Below, piece after piece: positions 741 through 8,755 of a stretch of DNA of 64,000 bases. How positions within the stretch are numbered: position 1 is the stretch's first letter; every line of letters begins with the position of its first letter. Below the pieces are notes generated by a model. It saw only the letters and a program-made list of their open reading frames with translations. It was not told the DNA's origin and ran no database searches. A program made the translations under genes and the position numbers. The stretch is taken from assembly GCA_003220795.1 (NCBI GenBank), contig QHTK01000045.1:62001-126000 (forward strand), given 5' to 3'. Origin of the DNA: Gemmatimonadota bacterium. GTDB lineage: Bacteria; Gemmatimonadota; Gemmatimonadetes; Gemmatimonadales; GWC2-71-9.

Positions 741-1649
741 TCACGCCCGGGGATGATACTGCCGATGCACGCTGCGCAGGTAGTCCCGGTCCACGTGGGT
801 GTAGAGCTGCGTCGTTGCGAGGTCGGCGTGCCCCAGCATCTCCTGGACCGCCCGCAGGTCCGCGCCGCCCTCGAGCAGATGAGTGGCGAAGCTGTGGCGC
901 AGCGTGTGGGGGGTGACCCGCTTCGTGAGCCCCGCCACTTTCGCGGCGCGCTTGATGATCGACCACGCGCCCACGCGCGACAGCGGCGTACCGCGCGCAT
1001 TGAGGAACAGGATGTTCCGTCCTTGCCCCTTGTCGAAGCGGGGCCGAATCTCGCGGACGTAGAGCGCCACCGCGCCCAGCGCGCGGCGCCCCACCGGCAC
1101 GATGCGCTCCTTCGACCCCTTCCCGAAGATCCGCACCAGCCCGTCCTCGTACAACAAATCTTGAGGCTTCACACCCACCACCTCGGACACGCGCGCCCCG
1201 GTCGCATAGGCGAACTCGAGCAGGGCCCGGTCCCGCATCGCGAGCGGCTCGTCGGTGTTCGGCGCCGCGAGCAGTCTGCCGACCTCGGGGACCGTCAGTA
1301 CCGTGGGCAGGGTGCGCCACTGCTTCGGCGATTCGAGGCGCTCGCTCGGGTCGCGCGTCGCGTGTCCTTCGCCGACCAGGAAGCGGTAGTACGTGCGGAT
1401 CGCCGAGATCTGGCGACGGATGGTGGCCGGGGCGAGGCCCAAGTCCTTGAGATCGTACACGAACTCGCGCAGCTGCGCCGCGGTAATGGCATCGGGGCGG
1501 TCGGCGCCCTTGGTCTTCGCGTGGGCGATGAGCCGCCCGACGTCGCGCAGGTAATTGGCCACGGTATTCGCGCTGTTTCCGGCCTCGAGAGCGAGGTAAT
1601 CGCGGAACGGCCCCACGTGAAATGCGTGATCGTCCGCGGTCACAACCAC
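741..1649 (-). CDS. xerD: Tyrosine recombinase XerD/XerC
   Basis: Site-specific recombinase that resolves chromosome dimers at dif with its Xer partner. The 302-residue length is typical. Residues 11-100 form the SAM-like core-binding domain; the catalytic domain follows. The full catalytic set is visible: Arg153 (GARVSE), Lys177/180 (GKGSKER), His248 and Arg251 (TPHTLRHSF), His274 (LGHADL) and the nucleophile Tyr283 (TQLYTHVD). The start is a GTG that overlaps the stop of the upstream methyltransferase-like gene by 10 bases; a second in-frame GTG lies two codons later. XerC versus XerD is not decided by sequence reading alone. It lies close to, but outside, the repeat-bounded module at 2137-8184. 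Confidence 0.9.
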   Translation of the reverse strand: MVVTADDHAFHVGPFRDYLALEAGNSANTVANYLRDVGRLIAHAKTKGADRPDAITAAQLREFVYDLKDLGLAPATIRRQISAIRTYYRFLVGEGHATRDPSERLESPKQWRTLPTVLTVPEVGRLLAAPNTDEPLAMRDRALLEFAYATGARVSEVVGVKPQDLLYEDGLVRIFGKGSKERIVPVGRRALGAVALYVREIRPRFDKGQGRNILFLNARGTPLSRVGAWSIIKRAAKVAGLTKRVTPHTLRHSFATHLLEGGADLRAVQEMLGHADLATTQLYTHVDRDYLRSVHRQYHPRA

Positions 1650-2110
1650 CGCCGTACCCGCGTCGTGTACGCCCGATAGGCGTCACCGAACTTGCGCTCG
1701 AGGTACGCCTCCTCGCGCGCGATGACCGCCCACCGGATCACGCCGAGCACCACCGGCAGCAGCAGGAGTGGCCACAGCGAGTTGATGAGCAGCGTGACGC
1801 CGGCGTAGAGGGCCGTGAGCCCGACGTACATCGGGTTGCGGGTGAAGCGATAGGGGCCCCGCACCACGAGCGCCGTGGTGGGTTGAATGGGAACCGGGCT
1901 CGTGCCGGCTCGGCGAAACAGGACGATGGCGCTCGCCGCAAGCGCAACGCCCGCGCCGGCGAAGACCCAGCCGAGCAGTATCCGAGCCCCGCCCACCGCT
2001 ACGGGTGCGGGCTTGAATCGATCCAGCGCGTACCCGATGCCGAACCCCAGCGCGTACACGATGGGCGGCGGCACCACCACGCCTGCGCTATCCGCCGAAG
2101 CATCCGCCAT
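1640..2110 (-). CDS. Isoprenylcysteine carboxyl methyltransferase-like membrane protein
   Basis: Integral membrane protein of 156 residues from the ICMT/PEMT methyltransferase superfamily. Four hydrophobic segments are apparent. The family signature is clear: GPYRFTRNPMYVG near residues 84-96 and the C-terminal REEAYLERKFGDAYRAY block, where the SAM-binding Arg-Asn-Pro and Glu-Glu residues sit. The substrate is unknown, because bacterial members methylate varied lipids or small molecules. I chose ATG 2110, preceded by AGGA about 7 bases upstream; a GTG at 2128 is in frame but has no such site. Just upstream, at 2139-2168, lies a ten-codon remnant of a dedA 3-prime end, so this gene was probably once directly downstream of dedA. 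Confidence 0.8.
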   Translation of the reverse strand: MADASADSAGVVVPPPIVYALGFGIGYALDRFKPAPVAVGGARILLGWVFAGAGVALAASAIVLFRRAGTSPVPIQPTTALVVRGPYRFTRNPMYVGLTALYAGVTLLINSLWPLLLLPVVLGVIRWAVIAREEAYLERKFGDAYRAYTTRVRRWL

Positions 2111-2136
2111 GTGGCTTCCTGTGGGCACTCAGGCGA

Positions 2137-2170
2137 TTCTAACGCCTCAGGCGGCGCCAAATCCATAGCC
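2137..2170. repeat. 34-bp direct repeat, left copy
   Basis: This 34-base segment matches 8151-8184 at 31 of 34 positions in the same orientation; mismatches are at repeat positions 10, 11 and 30. The shared core includes CAGGCGGCGCCAAATCCA. The identity stops sharply at both ends. The minus strand of this copy encodes the last nine residues of DedA and its stop codon. The copy lies between the methyltransferase-like gene and the GntP permease gene. Confidence 0.9.
2139..2168 (-). pseudogene. Ten-codon remnant of a dedA 3-prime end
   Basis: The minus strand reads LWIWRRLRR followed by TAG. The intact DedA at 8153-8755 ends LWIWRRLQR followed by TAG. The first Leu codon differs synonymously (CTA versus CTG) and one residue changes Gln to Arg. 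No DedA-like sequence continues upstream of the remnant, so it is a fragment, not a gene. It ends 28 bases before the ATG of the methyltransferase-like gene, a normal operon spacing. Confidence 0.8.
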
Positions 2171-2209
2171 GGTGGTTTCCAAGATGAAGGAGTACATTCT
2201 CTGGCGCTC

Positions 2210-3622
2210 ATGCATCCGTTACTGATCCTGCTGGTCGGCATGGCCACGATCCTCGTGGGGATCGTGGTGCTGCGCCTGAACGCGTTCCTGGCGCTGATCA
2301 CCGCCGCGATCGTGGTGAGCTTGCTTGCCCCCGGTGAGCCCGGGGTGAAGATCGCTCGCGTGGCGGAAGGCTTCGGCCGCACCGCAGGGACCATCGGGAT
2401 CGTCATCGCGCTGGCGGGGATCGCCGGTAAAGCGATGATGGACAGCGGTGCGGCGGACCGGATCGTCAGGGCGTTCCTCGCCCTGCTGGGCGAGAAGCGA
2501 GGCGCGACAGCCCTGTGCGCCACCGGCTACGTACTGTCGATCCCCGTGTTTTTCGACACGGTCTTCTATTTGCTGGTCCCCCTGGCCCGCTCGATGCACG
2601 TCCGCACCGGCCGCAACTATCTCAAGTACCTCCTGGCGATTGCGGCGGGCGCAGGGGCGACACACACGCTCGTCCCGCCCACCCCCGGACCTCTGGCGGT
2701 CGCGGGCACCTTGGGCGTAGACCTCGGCACCATGGTTCTGGTCGGCGCCGTCGTGGCGCTGCCGGCGGCCGTAGTCGGGCTGCTCGTCGCGGGGTGGGTG
2801 GACCGCCGCATGCCCGTTGTGCCGCGAGCTCCGGCCGGCATCGCCGCCCCAGCCTTGCGCGCGAGTGCCACAGAGGCGCCGGCCCCGCAGGCACTTCCCG
2901 GTCTCGTTCCCTCACTCCTGCCCATCGTCCTACCAGTGCTGCTCATTTCGTCGCACACGGTGGTCCAGTCCATGACGGCACGACCCGGCGTGCACCTGGC
3001 GATCTGGTCGGCGCTGGCCCGCTACACCGCGATCATCGGGAACCCCAACCTGGCGCTGCTCGTCGCTGCCGCGGTCGCCATGGTGGTGTACGCGCAGCAG
3101 CGCAGGGTGAGCCGGGCCGACCTCACGGAGATGGTGGACACATCCCTGATGAGCTCCGGGTTCCTCATCTTGATCATTGCGGCGAGCGGGGCGTTCGGGG
3201 TCGCGCTGCAGGCCGCGCAGATCGGGCCCGTGATCGAGCGGGCGTTCGTCGGGCAGACGGCCGCGTCGGGCACGGGCTCCGGCCTGATCTTTCTGTTCCT
3301 CGGGTTCGGGGTCGCAAGTCTGATCAAAATTGCCCAAGGTTCGAGTACCGTCGCGATGATCACGACCGCGGCGATGCTGGCCGCTATGCTGCCAGGGAAC
3401 GGCGGCGGTCTTCCCTTTCACACCGTATATGTCGCGACCGCGATTGCCAGCGGGTCGCTCGTCGGGTCGTGGATGAACGACAGCGGGTTCTGGATGTTTT
3501 CGAAGATGGGAGGAGTGACGGAGCTGGAGACCCTCAAGTCGTGGACTCCCGTGCTCGCCATCGTCGGTGTCACAGCCATGGTGACGACGCTCGTGCTCGC
3601 GCTCCTGGTGCCGCTGCGGTAG
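2210..3622 (+). CDS. GntP family gluconate/sugar-acid:H+ symporter
   Basis: Inner-membrane permease of 470 residues with roughly a dozen hydrophobic segments, matching the GntP family that imports gluconate and related aldonates or hydroxy acids. Family-typical stretches include the Thr-His-Thr-x-Val-Pro-Pro-Thr-Pro-Gly-Pro segment near residues 148-158 and NDSGFWMFSKMGG near residues 423-435. The preferred start is ATG 2210; an AAGGAG lies at 2187-2192, 17 bases away, which is long. An in-frame CTG at 2201 would sit 8 bases from it, so a nine-base-earlier start is possible. It is the first plus-strand gene of the repeat-bounded module with the dehydratase and lactonase, which points to an aldonate substrate; the exact sugar acid is inferred. 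Confidence 0.88.
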   Translation: MHPLLILLVGMATILVGIVVLRLNAFLALITAAIVVSLLAPGEPGVKIARVAEGFGRTAGTIGIVIALAGIAGKAMMDSGAADRIVRAFLALLGEKRGATALCATGYVLSIPVFFDTVFYLLVPLARSMHVRTGRNYLKYLLAIAAGAGATHTLVPPTPGPLAVAGTLGVDLGTMVLVGAVVALPAAVVGLLVAGWVDRRMPVVPRAPAGIAAPALRASATEAPAPQALPGLVPSLLPIVLPVLLISSHTVVQSMTARPGVHLAIWSALARYTAIIGNPNLALLVAAAVAMVVYAQQRRVSRADLTEMVDTSLMSSGFLILIIAASGAFGVALQAAQIGPVIERAFVGQTAASGTGSGLIFLFLGFGVASLIKIAQGSSTVAMITTAAMLAAMLPGNGGGLPFHTVYVATAIASGSLVGSWMNDSGFWMFSKMGGVTELETLKSWTPVLAIVGVTAMVTTLVLALLVPLR

Positions 3623-3655
3623 CGAGTGCTGAAAACCACCTGAGAGTCGTGCGCG

Positions 3656-4972
3656 TCATTTGATTGGACGCCCTGAAGGGCGCCCTCGGCTGTCTTCATC
3701 ATGCGGCGTCAGCACGGAACGGCCCGATCGGTCGGCCGCGATCGTGAAGTGCGCCACGCGCCGCCCGAGCAGTTGCCCGGCCTCGATGTCAAACCGGTAA
3801 TGGATGCCGCCGTACATGCGCGATAGCCCCGCCTCGATGACCATCGCGTCCAATTGCTTGCGCTGTGCCGGGAAGAAGGTCCTCAGCACCTCCGCGGCCG
3901 ATGATGAGAGGCAGCTGTGCCCCGAGGGATAGGACGGGTGGTTGGGCTTCCCGACCGCGGCAACGACCGTGATCGCGTGGTCCGCCTGCCAGGGCCGGAT
4001 GAGCCAGTACGTCTCCTTCGCGTCCCAGCAACCGATCTGGGCGTCGAACATCGTCGCGCTGAGCAACGCGTAGAGATGCGTCGCCCGGCGCTCGGAGAAG
4101 GGCTGTTGATTGATGCCGTCCGTCGCCTGCTGGATCCAGAACCCCGACGTGGTGGGGGTGCCCGCGGCCAGCGCCCAGAACGTGGCGATGTCCAGCTGCG
4201 CCTGCGTGCGCGTATCGGAGATCGCGCGGATTTCCCTCAGCCCTGCAAGGAACGCCGTGGACCCGAACGCCGGCGGGGGAGCCGACCGAAACTGGCTCGC
4301 GGAGGTCAGGAACCAGGGGCGCACCCCCGGCAACGACCCGCCCGCGACCGCCGGGGGCGTCGCTTCGCTGAACCACAGCCCGGCCCCCACCGGAATGGTG
4401 CCCGCGAACGGCGCGGTGAAGCCATCGGCCCTGGCGCGCGTCACGATGGCGGCGCCCACCCCGCGGCCGATCGTTTCGCCGCGCACAAACGCGTCGTGCG
4501 ACGCGGCGGAAGCTGTGTTTCTCTGCGTCGTCACCATGTCTTCAAGGGCCTGAGCCTGAGTGGGAAACAGGTAGGTCAGTACCACCGCCGATGCGCCGGC
4601 GACAGCGCCGCGATCGGATTCAGGACCGCTCCGCCCGCCGCCCCCGGTCTCGTCGTCGCCATCATCGTCGCCGTGCCTGGCGTGCGTGACGCCTTCGGCC
4701 TGCTGCACCGCCAGATACTGTGCTACGCCGACGAGGGAGTAGGCGCGAGTCGCGACCGTGGGAGACAGGTTCGCTTGCATGACGAGGTGGGCCGCGGTCC
4801 CCTGCCATCCCGGACTTGCCAAACCCTCCGTAGAGGAGACGCCGTTGCGCGACGCGGCGAGGGACCCGCTGGGTCCCACAGGGTTCGCGTCGGGCTGACA
4901 GGCCAAAAGGGGCGCGACGACGGCCGCAACTGCCAATAAGCCGTGGTGTGAGACAGTTGAATGAAGTCGCAT
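3656..4972 (-). CDS. Vanadium-haloperoxidase/PAP2-like lipoprotein
   Basis: Secreted lipoprotein of 438 residues in the PAP2/haloperoxidase superfamily, which hydrolyses phosphate esters or, with bound vanadate, oxidises halides. Residues 1-25 form a signal peptide ending in a lipobox (PLLAC, Cys25). All three active-site motifs are present near the C-terminus: K319-x6-R326-P327, PSGH at 349-352, and S384-R385-x5-H391-x3-D395. The domain before them is long and helical, as in bacterial haloperoxidase-like proteins. The ATG at 4972 follows GGAGG by 7 bases; longer starts up to 5086 would bury the signal peptide. It is divergent from the dehydratase gene and convergent with gntP. Phosphatase and haloperoxidase cannot be separated by motif; its link to sugar-acid use is unexplained. 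Confidence 0.82.
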   Translation of the reverse strand: MRLHSTVSHHGLLAVAAVVAPLLACQPDANPVGPSGSLAASRNGVSSTEGLASPGWQGTAAHLVMQANLSPTVATRAYSLVGVAQYLAVQQAEGVTHARHGDDDGDDETGGGGRSGPESDRGAVAGASAVVLTYLFPTQAQALEDMVTTQRNTASAASHDAFVRGETIGRGVGAAIVTRARADGFTAPFAGTIPVGAGLWFSEATPPAVAGGSLPGVRPWFLTSASQFRSAPPPAFGSTAFLAGLREIRAISDTRTQAQLDIATFWALAAGTPTTSGFWIQQATDGINQQPFSERRATHLYALLSATMFDAQIGCWDAKETYWLIRPWQADHAITVVAAVGKPNHPSYPSGHSCLSSSAAEVLRTFFPAQRKQLDAMVIEAGLSRMYGGIHYRFDIEAGQLLGRRVAHFTIAADRSGRSVLTPHDEDSRGRPSGRPIK

Positions 4973-5163
4973 GTGTCGCCTCCGCACGGTGGAAAGGCGC
5001 CGATGGTCCGGCGATCTCGACGTCGGGTGGCGTCGCGTGGCGACGCCAGAACGAAGGCGAGAGGGCCAACGCGAATGCGAGGCCATCGAAGAGGCGTCAA
5101 TATATGAAACGTTACCGGCGAGCGCTAGAATGAGTGTGACTCGGCTTGGGAGGAGTTAGCGTT
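4973..5163. promoter_or_regulatory. Divergent intergenic region between the lipoprotein and dehydratase genes
   Basis: This 191-base gap must hold promoters for two divergent genes. On the plus strand a TAGAAT at 5126-5131 could be a -10 box for the dehydratase, but no convincing -35 lies 16-18 bases upstream. On the minus strand a TTGACG at about 5093-5098 could be a -35 box, with a poor -10 partner. A strong Shine-Dalgarno, GGGAGGAG, occupies 5148-5155. No clear operator palindrome is visible. The promoter calls are weak. Confidence 0.35.
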
Positions 5164-7170
5164 GTGAACATGCACGACAAGCTCGTTGCGCCGCCGCTCG
5201 ATGCAGTGCTCGGCTCGGCGAGCGCTGTGGCCGCCGGCCGGCTCGCGGGTGCAGGACCGGCGGGCCGGCTCCCCCTCACGCCCGACATGCTGCGCGAGGA
5301 GCCGAGCGGCAACGTCTTCGGCCTGACGCAGAACGTCGGGATGGGCTGGAGCCCGGCATCCCTCGACGGCCCGCAGTACGTCATCGTAAGCACCCATGGC
5401 GGCCTGCGGAGCGAGGACGGTAGCCCCGTGGCGCTGGGATACCACACCGGGCACTGGGAGATCGGGTTGCTGGTCCGGGCAGCGGCCGAAACGCTCCGCG
5501 CGGCGGGAGCGATCCCCTTTGCGGCGTACTGCAGCGACCCGTGCGACGGCCGCACGCAGGGGACCACGGGGATGTTCGACAGCCTGCCCTATCGCAACGA
5601 CGCGGCGGTCGTGATGCGCCGCCTGATCCGCTCCCTTCCCACCGGGTCGGGCGTCATGGGTGTCGCCACCTGCGACAAGGGTCTGCCCGCGACGATGCTC
5701 GCGCTCGCCGGATGCGGGGAGCTGCCCGGCGTCATCGTTCCCGGTGGCGTGACCCTGCCGGCGGTCGGGGGCGAGGACGCGGGCCAGGTGCAGAGCCTGG
5801 GCGCCCGCTTCGCGCGGGACCTGGTGAGCCTGGACTACGCGGCCACGATGGGGTGCCGCGCCTGCGGCTCCGCGGGCGGCGGATGTCAGTTCCTGGGGAC
5901 CGCGGCGACGTCGCAGGTCGTGGCAGAGGCGCTCGGGTTGGCCCTGCCGCACAGCGCGCTCGCGCCGTCCGGTGAGCCGGTATGGCTCGAGCTGGGCACC
6001 CGCTCGGGCCTAGCCCTGCTGCGGCTTCACGCGCTCGCGATTCCGATCAAGCGGATCCTGAGTCAACACGCGCTCGAGAACGCCATGCTGGTGCACGCGG
6101 CGTTCGGTGGGTCGACCAACCTGGTGCTGCACATTCCGGCGATTGCGCACGCGGCGGGGCTCCGACCGCCCACGGTGGACGACTGGAGCCGCGTCAATCG
6201 CGCCACGCCGCGCCTGGTCGATGCTCTGCCGAACGGCCCGCGCGGCCATCCTACCGTGCAGGTCTTCATGGCCGGGGGTGTGCCCGAAGTGATGCTGCAC
6301 TTGCGCCGGATGGGCCTGCTGCACGGCGACGTGCTCACGGCGACGGGCGACACGCTCGACGCGACGCTCGACTGGTGGGCGGCGAGCGACCGGCGTCGAG
6401 TGGCGCGGGCGCGGCTCGCCGCGGCGGCGGCGGTCGCTCCCGACGACGTCATCATGGGTCCGGACGCCGCGCGCCGCGCCGGGCTGACCAGCACCGTCGT
6501 CTTCCCGGTCGGAAACCTGGCACCCGAGGGGGCGGTGATCAAAGCCACCGCGCTCGACCCCTCCGTTGTGGGCGACAATCAGCTATACCGCCACCGTGGC
6601 CCCGCGCGCGTGTTCGTCGACGAGCGAGACGCGATCCGTGCCGTGAAAGGCGCGACCGAGCGGCCGATTCAACCGGGCGACGTGATCGTGCTGATCGGCA
6701 CGGGGCCGTCGGGCACGGGGATGCAGGAGACTGCGCAGATCACCACGGCGCTCAGGTACCTCCCCTGGGGGAAGCACGTCGCGCTCCTCACCGACGGCCG
6801 TTTTTCCGGGTTCTCGAGCGGCGCGTGTGTAGGCCACATCGGACCGGAGGCGCTGCACGGCGGCCCGATCGGGCGGGTGCGCGACGATGACTTGATCGAG
6901 ATCGTGATCGACCGCGCCACGCTCACGGGTTCGGTCGACCTCGTGGGAGCCGCCGGCCAGCCGCTCGACACGGCCGCGTGCGCCGCGCTGCTCGAGCAAC
7001 GGAGCCCGCACCCCGGGCTCGCGCCCCACCCCGCCCTGCCGGCGGACACCCGCCTGTGGGCGGCGCTGCAGCGGGCGAGCGGCGGAACGTGGGCCGGCTG
7101 CGTGTACGACGTCGATCGGATCGTGGCGGCGCTCGAGGCAGGTCTCAACCTCACCAAGGAGGTGAAGTGA
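5164..7170 (+). CDS. YjhG/YagF-type aldonate (D-xylonate) dehydratase, IlvD/Edd family
   Basis: Iron-sulfur dehydratase of 668 residues that removes water from a sugar acid to give the 2-keto-3-deoxy acid. Length and sequence fit the YjhG/YagF branch (about 655 residues) rather than IlvD or Edd. Cluster cysteines are visible at about Cys127 (CSDPCDG), Cys170 (ATCDKG) and Cys241 (GGGCQFLG). The C-terminal half carries the TDGRFSG motif near residue 540. The start is GTG 5164, 8 bases after GGGAGGAG; an ATG two codons later is possible and a TTG at 5146 would overlap the ribosome site. Its stop overlaps the lactonase start by 4 bases. Substrate assignment to xylonate or a similar pentonate or hexonate is family-based. 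Confidence 0.88.
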
Positions 7171-8156
7171 TCTCGCTGCTACTGGTGCTCGCACAGGCAG
7201 CCGGCGCGGTTCAAGGCGATCCTTCGATCGTCGCGCCGGGCGCCAAGCTGGAGCGGCTGTTCGGCGACGGGTTCTTCACCGAGGGTCCCGCGCAGGCGCC
7301 CGACGGCTCGGTCTATTTCTCGGACATCACCTTCGTCAAGGCATCCGGGTATCAGGCGGGCCACATCTGGCGCTGGGATCCGCGGACCGGGACCGCCACC
7401 GTATTCCGCTCGCCGAGCGGGATGTCCAACGGGATCGTGTTCGACGAGCAAGACCGCCTGGTCGTCGCGGAGGGAGCGGGGTTCGGCGGTCGCCGCATCA
7501 CCCGGACCGACATGAAAACCGGCAAGAGCTGGATCATCGCCGGGCTCTACAACGGCCGACCGTTCAATTCTCCGAATGATCTGGTGATCGATGCGCGCGG
7601 GCGTATCTACTTCACCGACCCGCGCTACTCGGGGCACGAGCCGGTCGAGCAGCCGGTGCAAGGGGTGTACCGTATCGATCCGGACGGACGGGTCTCGCTG
7701 GTGGCGGCCAACGCCGGCAAGCCGAACGGTATCGCCGTGTCTCCCGATCAGGCCACGCTGTACGTCGCCTCAATCGATAACGGATCGTTCGACGAGAATC
7801 TGTCGCCGGAGACGCCGACCCTGCCCGGACGCATGGCGCTGCTCGCGTACGACCTGGCGCCGGACGGCTCGGCGAAATTCCGCCGCACCGTGGTGGATTT
7901 TTCGCCGGGCGTCGGGCCCGACGGGATCGGCGTCGACCGGGACGGCAACATCTATTGCGCGATTCCGGGTCGCGACCGACCGGGCATCCACGTCTACTCT
8001 CCGGCTGGGACGGAGCTGGCCTATATCCCGACGCCGGAGACGCCGACGAATGTAAGGTTCGGCCGCGGGGCGGATAAACAGACGTTGTTCATTACGGCGG
8101 GGAAGAGTCTGTACCGGATTAACGTGGAGCGCAGCGGGTACCACCCGGGCTTCTAA
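7167..8156 (+). CDS. SMP-30/gluconolactonase family lactonase, probably exported
   Basis: Six-bladed beta-propeller hydrolase of 329 residues that opens sugar lactones to the acids used by the dehydratase next door. Metal-site residues of the family are recognisable: Glu39 (TEGP), Asn137 (SPNDLVID), Asn187 (PNGIAV) and an Asp in the later GPDGIGVD blade. The N-terminus, [17 protein letters not shown], looks like a short signal peptide, which would place lactone opening in the periplasm ahead of GntP import. GTG 7167 overlaps the dehydratase TGA as GTGA, with AAGGAGG at 7156-7162. Its stop codon lies inside the right 34-bp repeat and overlaps the dedA stop by 4 bases, convergently. Confidence 0.87.
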
Positions 8157-8184
8157 CGCTGCAGGCGGCGCCAAATCCACAGCC
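8151..8184. repeat. 34-bp direct repeat, right copy
   Basis: Matches 2137-2170 at 31 of 34 positions. This copy contains the stop codon of the SMP-30 gene on the plus strand and the last nine codons plus stop of dedA on the minus strand. Beyond 8184 the dedA reading frame continues with no counterpart at the left copy, so this copy is the one joined to the intact gene. Confidence 0.9.
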
Positions 8185-8755
8185 CGAGGCCCAACACCGC
8201 CGCGAGCGCGACGACGGCCAGGGCGCCGTTGACGCGCGCGACCATTCGCAGGACCGCGTCCAGGTTCGTACCCAGCGCGGTCACCAGGTACGTGAGGAGC
8301 CCGTACCACAGTGCCGACGCGAGCGCCAGCGGGAGGAGTGCCCGCACCGGCGGGACGCCGGCGATCCCCGCGAACGGCATCACGACGCCGCGCCACACCG
8401 GAAGCAGCCGGCTCAGGAAGATCCCGTAGGTTCCGTGGCGACGATACTCTCGTTCGATATGCCCCATGGCGTGCTCGGAGAGCAGGCGCCGTCCGAGCTT
8501 CCCCTGGAAAAATGGCCGGCCGAACCGGTGGGAGGCGAAATAGACGACCGCCCCGGAGCCGACGTTGGCGGTCCACGTGAGCCCAAAGACGGCCCACGGA
8601 TCGAGCGTCCCCCGCCCCGCCAGGAACGCGCCGAGCGCGACGGCGGTGTCGGCGGGAACGGGCGGGAAAATATTCTCGAGGGCGGCGAAGGTGGCGACCA
8701 GCGCGTACAGCGGGCCCGGTGGGAGGGCTTCGAGCCAGTGGACGAGATCGCTCAC
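8153..8755 (-). CDS. dedA: DedA family membrane protein
   Basis: Polytopic inner-membrane protein of 200 residues in the DedA/VTT (SNARE-associated Golgi protein) superfamily, whose members move undecaprenyl phosphate or phosphatidylethanolamine across the membrane. Visible motifs are LENIFPPVPADT near residues 27-38, with the conserved Glu and Pro-Pro, and the LSRLLPVWRGVVMPFAGIAG segment near residues 114-133 holding the conserved Arg-x3-Pro. The GTG at 8755 overlaps the ispF TGA as GTGA. The last nine codons form the right copy of the 34-bp repeat and are duplicated at 2139-2168. It is the last gene of the 35-gene minus-strand run that begins at nuoA. Confidence 0.87.
   Translation of the reverse strand: MSDLVHWLEALPPGPLYALVATFAALENIFPPVPADTAVALGAFLAGRGTLDPWAVFGLTWTANVGSGAVVYFASHRFGRPFFQGKLGRRLLSEHAMGHIEREYRRHGTYGIFLSRLLPVWRGVVMPFAGIAGVPPVRALLPLALASALWYGLLTYLVTALGTNLDAVLRMVARVNGALAVVALAAVLGLGLWIWRRLQR

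Follow-up and report, generated by a model that had tools for sequence, protein, structure and literature searches.

A second dedA gene end in a Gemmatimonadetes operon: the probable scar of a sugar-acid cluster insertion, possibly kept as a promoter

Why does the end of a dedA gene occur a second time about 6 kb from the gene itself, in front of a methyltransferase gene? The question is raised by the window analysed here, that is, the whole stretch of 64,000 nucleotides from a Gemmatimonadota bacterium (contig QHTK01000045.1, positions 62,001 to 126,000), whose minus strand at 2139-2168 reads LWIWRRLRR followed by a stop codon, against LWIWRRLQR and stop where the intact dedA (8153-8755, minus strand) ends. 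A sequence-only reading had called this stretch a ghost of the dedA C-terminus, and comparison of the two copies bears out both peptides as well as the count of three base differences in 30, one of them synonymous: the ghost has CTA where dedA has CTG in the first codon and AGG where dedA has CAG in the eighth, the codons TGG, ATT, TGG, CGC, CGC and CTG between them and the closing CGT and TAG being common to both. The distance of 28 bases between the ghost and the ATG of the methyltransferase gene PEMT (2108-2110) was also given correctly. The likeness extends beyond the 30 bases first described, as the ghost is part of a direct repeat of 39 bases. The features of the locus are listed below; the genus sample consists of five genomes, G000 (the window's own) to G004, and higher numbers denote genomes from outside the genus.

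2139-2168, minus strand: ghost of the dedA C-terminus (LWIWRRLRR and stop), from the sequence; its 34-nucleotide core lies upstream of PEMT in G000, G001, G003 and G004
2137-2175, minus strand: left copy of the direct repeat in its full extent, 34/39 identical to 8151-8189
8151-8189, minus strand: right repeat copy, which is the intact dedA 3' end; its first bases are the last codon and stop of SGL (TTC TAA); from the sequence and a repeat search
2133-2145, minus strand: GCGTTAGAATCGC (PEMT strand), ancestral dedA-PEMT junction and candidate -10 (TAGAAT) of the PEMT-xerD operon; invariant in the four ghosts and in outgroups G034 and G072
1640-2110, minus strand: PEMT, phospholipid/isoprenylcysteine-type methyltransferase (PEMT/ICMT; Pfam PF04191), by synteny originally directly downstream of dedA
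741-1649, minus strand: xerD-like tyrosine recombinase (Pfam PF00589), a conserved dedA neighbour in family and order (23 of 25 out-of-genus dedA loci)
2176-8150, no strand: inserted module as it now stands, about 6 kb; 10 out-of-genus loci lack it between PEMT and dedA, and the direct repeat lies at both its sides
2210-3622, plus strand: GntP-family sugar-acid permease of the module (Pfam PF02447)
3656-5086, minus strand: PAP2-superfamily protein within the module (Pfam PF01569)
5164-7170, plus strand: IlvD/EDD-family sugar-acid dehydratase of the module (Pfam PF00920, PF24877)
7167-8156, plus strand: SGL, SMP-30/gluconolactonase-type protein converging on dedA (Pfam PF08450); G028 and G070 have copies elsewhere that are 88-89% identical
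8153-8755, minus strand: intact dedA (VTT domain, VTT_dom; Pfam PF09335); residues 2-200 matched in 4/4 congeners

That the two copies resemble each other by chance, or belong to some unrelated dispersed repeat, deserves practically no credence. The next best ungapped match to the 39-mer on both strands of the whole window reaches 23/39, and a scan of the 3.3-Mb genome with a degenerate form of the repeat, allowing up to three mismatches, returned two places only, which are the two repeat copies; these two results rule such readings out, and the reversed pattern, used as a control, gave no match in the same 3.3 Mb. The ghost's position, which is the same in four species, and the ancestral junction preserved in outgroups speak against them as well.

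Both the relationship between the copies and the direction of change can be read from relatives. The synonymous difference had been taken as a sign that the copies diverged while at least one of them was coding; the count of one in three stands, but the inference drawn from it is weak, because random change gives about one-third synonymous differences. Polarity is better evidence, because the ghost agrees with the outgroups and with some congeners at two of the three differences. When both copies were compared with the dedA 3' ends of relatives, a check that the sequence-only reading had proposed, these two sites of the ghost were found to carry the ancestral base; the three differences fall in two codons. 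The base that the ghost has at the synonymous site is also present in the intact dedA of G003, G004 and both outgroups. Of the two differing bases in the Q/R codon, one has a state seen in the window's intact dedA alone; at the other, the outgroups and G002 have the same base as the window's intact dedA, and a different one stands in the ghosts and in three congeners, so that this site is ambiguous. Most simply, at least two of the three changes would have happened in the coding copy, dedA.

Searches, one of them covering 102 genomes, provided 30 PEMT loci to read, 4 in the genus and 26 outside it. In 10 of the latter, from three genera, dedA lies directly upstream of PEMT without the module (G034 and G072 of genus g31; G073, G074, G076, G077, G079, G080 and G081 of g25; G070 of g50), and xerD comes after PEMT in nine of these ten, the tenth (L066) stopping at a contig edge; the remaining 16 are methyltransferase matches without dedA within the flanks read. 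Similarly, xerD is found just downstream of dedA in 23 of 25 out-of-genus dedA loci, with the exception of one locus at a contig end (L012) and of G028, which carries a different insert there. The order dedA-(PEMT)-xerD is therefore old and the module a newcomer. In g31, the closest genus, the likeness to the ghost extends to the junction itself: GCGATTCTAACGC, which links the stop codon of dedA with the PEMT leader, is identical in G034, G072 and at the ghosts, and the ghost is therefore the original dedA end as seen from the PEMT side. The proposal that dedA and the methyltransferase gene were adjacent before the module arrived is thus supported by the ten out-of-genus loci and by the G034 and G072 junction. 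A second dedA tail sought in two loci of relatives (L054 and L055) was not found, the best matches being 22 and 21 of 40. IspF is also among the Pfam-named neighbours of the window's dedA. As for G028, the insert between its xerD and dedA (L039, 6534-10740) measures about 4.3 kb, and one of its products looks HAD/FkbH-like in translation.

Within the genus, module genes are found near dedA in all five genomes. PEMT is kept in four of the five, and in all four the ghost lies 27-30 bases upstream of it; in G002 there was no PEMT match and no ghost either (best 20/34). Over 34 bases the ghosts of G000 and G003 are identical, while that of G004 differs at 3 positions and that of G001 at 4. The changes in these last two alter amino acids, and the reading frame is therefore not what is kept.

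The module has a history different from that of its surroundings. Its SGL is 88-89% identical to the copies in G028 and G070, which belong to two other genera, whereas the dedA genes of these two genomes are only about 65% identical, and at four-fold sites between the genus and G028 and G070, module genes differ by 17-35% compared to 38-62% for backbone genes. By these sequence comparisons, the module is foreign and horizontally acquired. Its right edge can be placed within SGL: in G028, whose SGL is 88% identical, the gene ends GGC CCG TAA, and in the genus GGC is followed by TTC or TCC and by TAA CGC, the dedA tail coming after the stop, which indicates that SGL uses duplicated target sequence from its last codon on. 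This SGL-dedA junction is present in four of the five genomes; the fifth, G001, has lost SGL, and bases resembling the SGL end still adjoin its dedA. Where SGL was lost in G001, an aldehyde oxidase/xanthine dehydrogenase-type (molybdopterin-binding) gene adjoins dedA (L087, 4691-7189).

The left edge was sought through relatives of a GH3 gene (four loci, L107-L110), where alignments begin inside the gene and no common upstream sequence was seen. In G003, the genes found on the left side of gntP are of the GH3, FGGY-kinase (xylulokinase-like) and xylose-isomerase-like types. G004 can be aligned with G003 across the kinase and isomerase genes, with one internal stop in the kinase match, and a short GH3-like remnant can be read after its ghost. 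G000 and G001 have probably lost these genes, since their ghost stands directly in front of gntP. In the gntP-ilvD interval of G003 (L088, 8111-10752), we also noted a glucosamine-6-phosphate isomerase/6-phosphogluconolactonase-type gene and a second FGGY sugar kinase; the cargo of the module therefore varies between species. The window's PAP2 gene, which lies between gntP and ilvD, had no match in the module regions read from the four congeners G001-G004. G001 has two gntP copies that are 95.5% identical, one adjoining the ghost and one adjoining ilvD (L086 and L087, on contigs C26 and C24), by duplication or as an effect of assembly.

Taken together, these data make it very probable that a sugar-acid/pentose cluster entered at the dedA 3' end and duplicated about 37 bases; the ghost may then have been kept as a promoter. 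Given the repeat, the ancestral order, the shared junctions and the foreign module, we infer that the ends were joined once, by a non-homologous event that duplicated a short target. The minus-strand order would originally have been ispF-dedA-PEMT-xerD, and the horizontally acquired cluster would have entered it at the dedA 3' end in the ancestor of the genus. The joining would have duplicated about 37 bases, leaving one copy with PEMT, which is the ghost, and the other to complete the intact dedA; SGL would have been cut at its last codon, which together with its stop would now be supplied by the duplicated target. The insertion would also have separated PEMT and xerD from the upstream operon, and the ghost would probably have been retained, as its conservation suggests, for a PEMT promoter close to the start of the gene. 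Three things that such an insertion should leave behind are all found, namely host sequence repeated at both ends, an empty and unduplicated site in relatives, and a foreign insert. It counts against this explanation that a duplication of 37 bases is long for a transposon target duplication. Pfam searches of the insert proteins (the module genes of G000 and nine ORFs of G003 and G001) revealed no integrase, transposase or other mobility gene, and nothing positive therefore identifies the mechanism of joining.

A transfer in two steps might have produced the same arrangement: the module would first have become linked to dedA in a related strain, and a fragment carrying both would then have entered this lineage, its dedA-ispF side by homologous exchange and its PEMT side by illegitimate joining, with the recipient's own dedA tail left behind as the ghost. 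Such homology-facilitated illegitimate recombination has been described in bacteria (PMC3240628). The main support for this scenario is that, between G003 and G004, module and dedA are more divergent than the backbone, with differences at 237 of 1007 four-fold sites compared to 99 of 657 (P=3e-5). Because dedA also diverges more than the adjoining ispF between these two genomes (31/125 compared to 9/90 four-fold sites), it is probable that dedA moved along with the module in at least one exchange within the genus. The step from the divergent dedA to the ispF alongside (L088, 14874-15937) has the look of a recombination ending between the two genes. That dedA would appear to have partly shared the history of the module counts against our preferred explanation, as a single insertion does not need it. 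On the other hand, the left end of the dedA tail is common to the ghosts, and both junctions look genus-wide, which one event explains, and the dedA of the genus looks native, given that its four-fold distance to G034 is about equal to that of its neighbours. We regard a two-step transfer as unlikely.

Site-specific integration, in which the recombinase of an island would have used the dedA 3' end, the repeat would represent attL and attR, and the integrase would have been lost later, appears to us quite improbable. Direct repeats of such size that restore the 3' end of a gene are typical of islands of this kind, which speaks for the idea. No integrase, however, is among the scanned insert proteins of G000, G001 and G003, even though it could have been lost, and the junction falls within the final SGL codon, not at the edge of an element. 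The unrelated insert of G028 between xerD and dedA is, moreover, not accompanied by a second dedA tail (best 21/40), which argues against the dedA 3' end as a general attachment site, albeit from one case only.

If the cluster was inserted with a short target duplication, as we favour, the question becomes why the ghost has survived in four species. The ghost changes more slowly than four-fold sites and flanks, which is new here. On the four-species tree, it shows 7 parsimony changes in 34 sites, compared to 0.55 changes per site at the four-fold sites of PEMT and xerD (P=0.0006 for so few changes at 34 four-fold sites, a nominal value, as are all P values for conservation here, given that similarity to dedA was the reason for choosing the stretch). 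Of the 36 columns that the ghost block occupies in the intergenic alignment, 31 are invariant; the left flank, towards PEMT, has 9 invariant columns out of 22, and the other flank, where the G000 sequence is not homologous throughout, has 3 out of 22. No other stretch in front of PEMT is well conserved, and the blocks conserved most are those around GCGTTAGAATCGC and CTATGGATTTG (PEMT strand). Gene conversion keeping the copies alike was also considered; the ghost of G000 matches that of G003 at 34/34 positions and its own dedA at only 31/34, and conversion from dedA therefore does not explain the conservation.

An insertion that severed PEMT and xerD from their upstream operon would leave the two genes in need of a promoter of their own, and conservation above both the flanks and the neutral sites, as expected of such an element, is what was observed, with the nominal P values given above. 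The ghost may hence be kept as the promoter of the severed genes. A regulatory role is possible because the scar is more conserved than its flanks, and "ghost" is perhaps too passive a name for a scar that may now be regulatory. A scan for sigma-70 sites that could serve PEMT-xerD returned none, in a phylum whose promoter types may differ, and a terminator scan returned nothing. TTAGAAT occurs once in the window compared to 0.36 occurrences expected, a count that is no evidence for a general -10 motif. We would tentatively go one step further, with less than even confidence, and propose that the last codons of dedA double as the PEMT-xerD promoter, that an insertion here was viable only by copying this overlap, that the 37-base duplication is the reason why the module could settle, and that the second copy has since been preserved by selection as a promoter in its own right.

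The locus is a polarised record of an accessory sugar-use cluster entering a conserved operon in uncultured Gemmatimonadetes, with junctions that can be read across species. If the promoter reading is true, overlap between the end of one gene and the promoter of the next constrains where insertions survive; if it is false, what we describe is ordinary genome evolution, well resolved. Among known systems, the locus has points in common with three. Homology-facilitated illegitimate recombination could also leave a host tail and a donor-linked copy, and signs of dedA exchange with the module are present, but here one junction pair is common to the genus and is explained without it. Genomic islands at gene 3' ends are alike in that the att repeat equals the gene 3' end and the intact gene is retained; here, however, no integrase was found and the G028 insert at the same place lacks a second dedA tail. 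With scars of target-site duplication or illegitimate insertion, the locus shares foreign genes between short repeats of host sequence and an empty site in relatives, and it differs from them in the length of the duplication, about 37 bases with no mobility gene seen, and in the roles of the two repeat copies, one closing a functional gene and the other perhaps acting as a promoter. In our view, the locus bears the scar of an insertion that duplicated a short target; relatives polarise it well, and it is possibly kept as a promoter.
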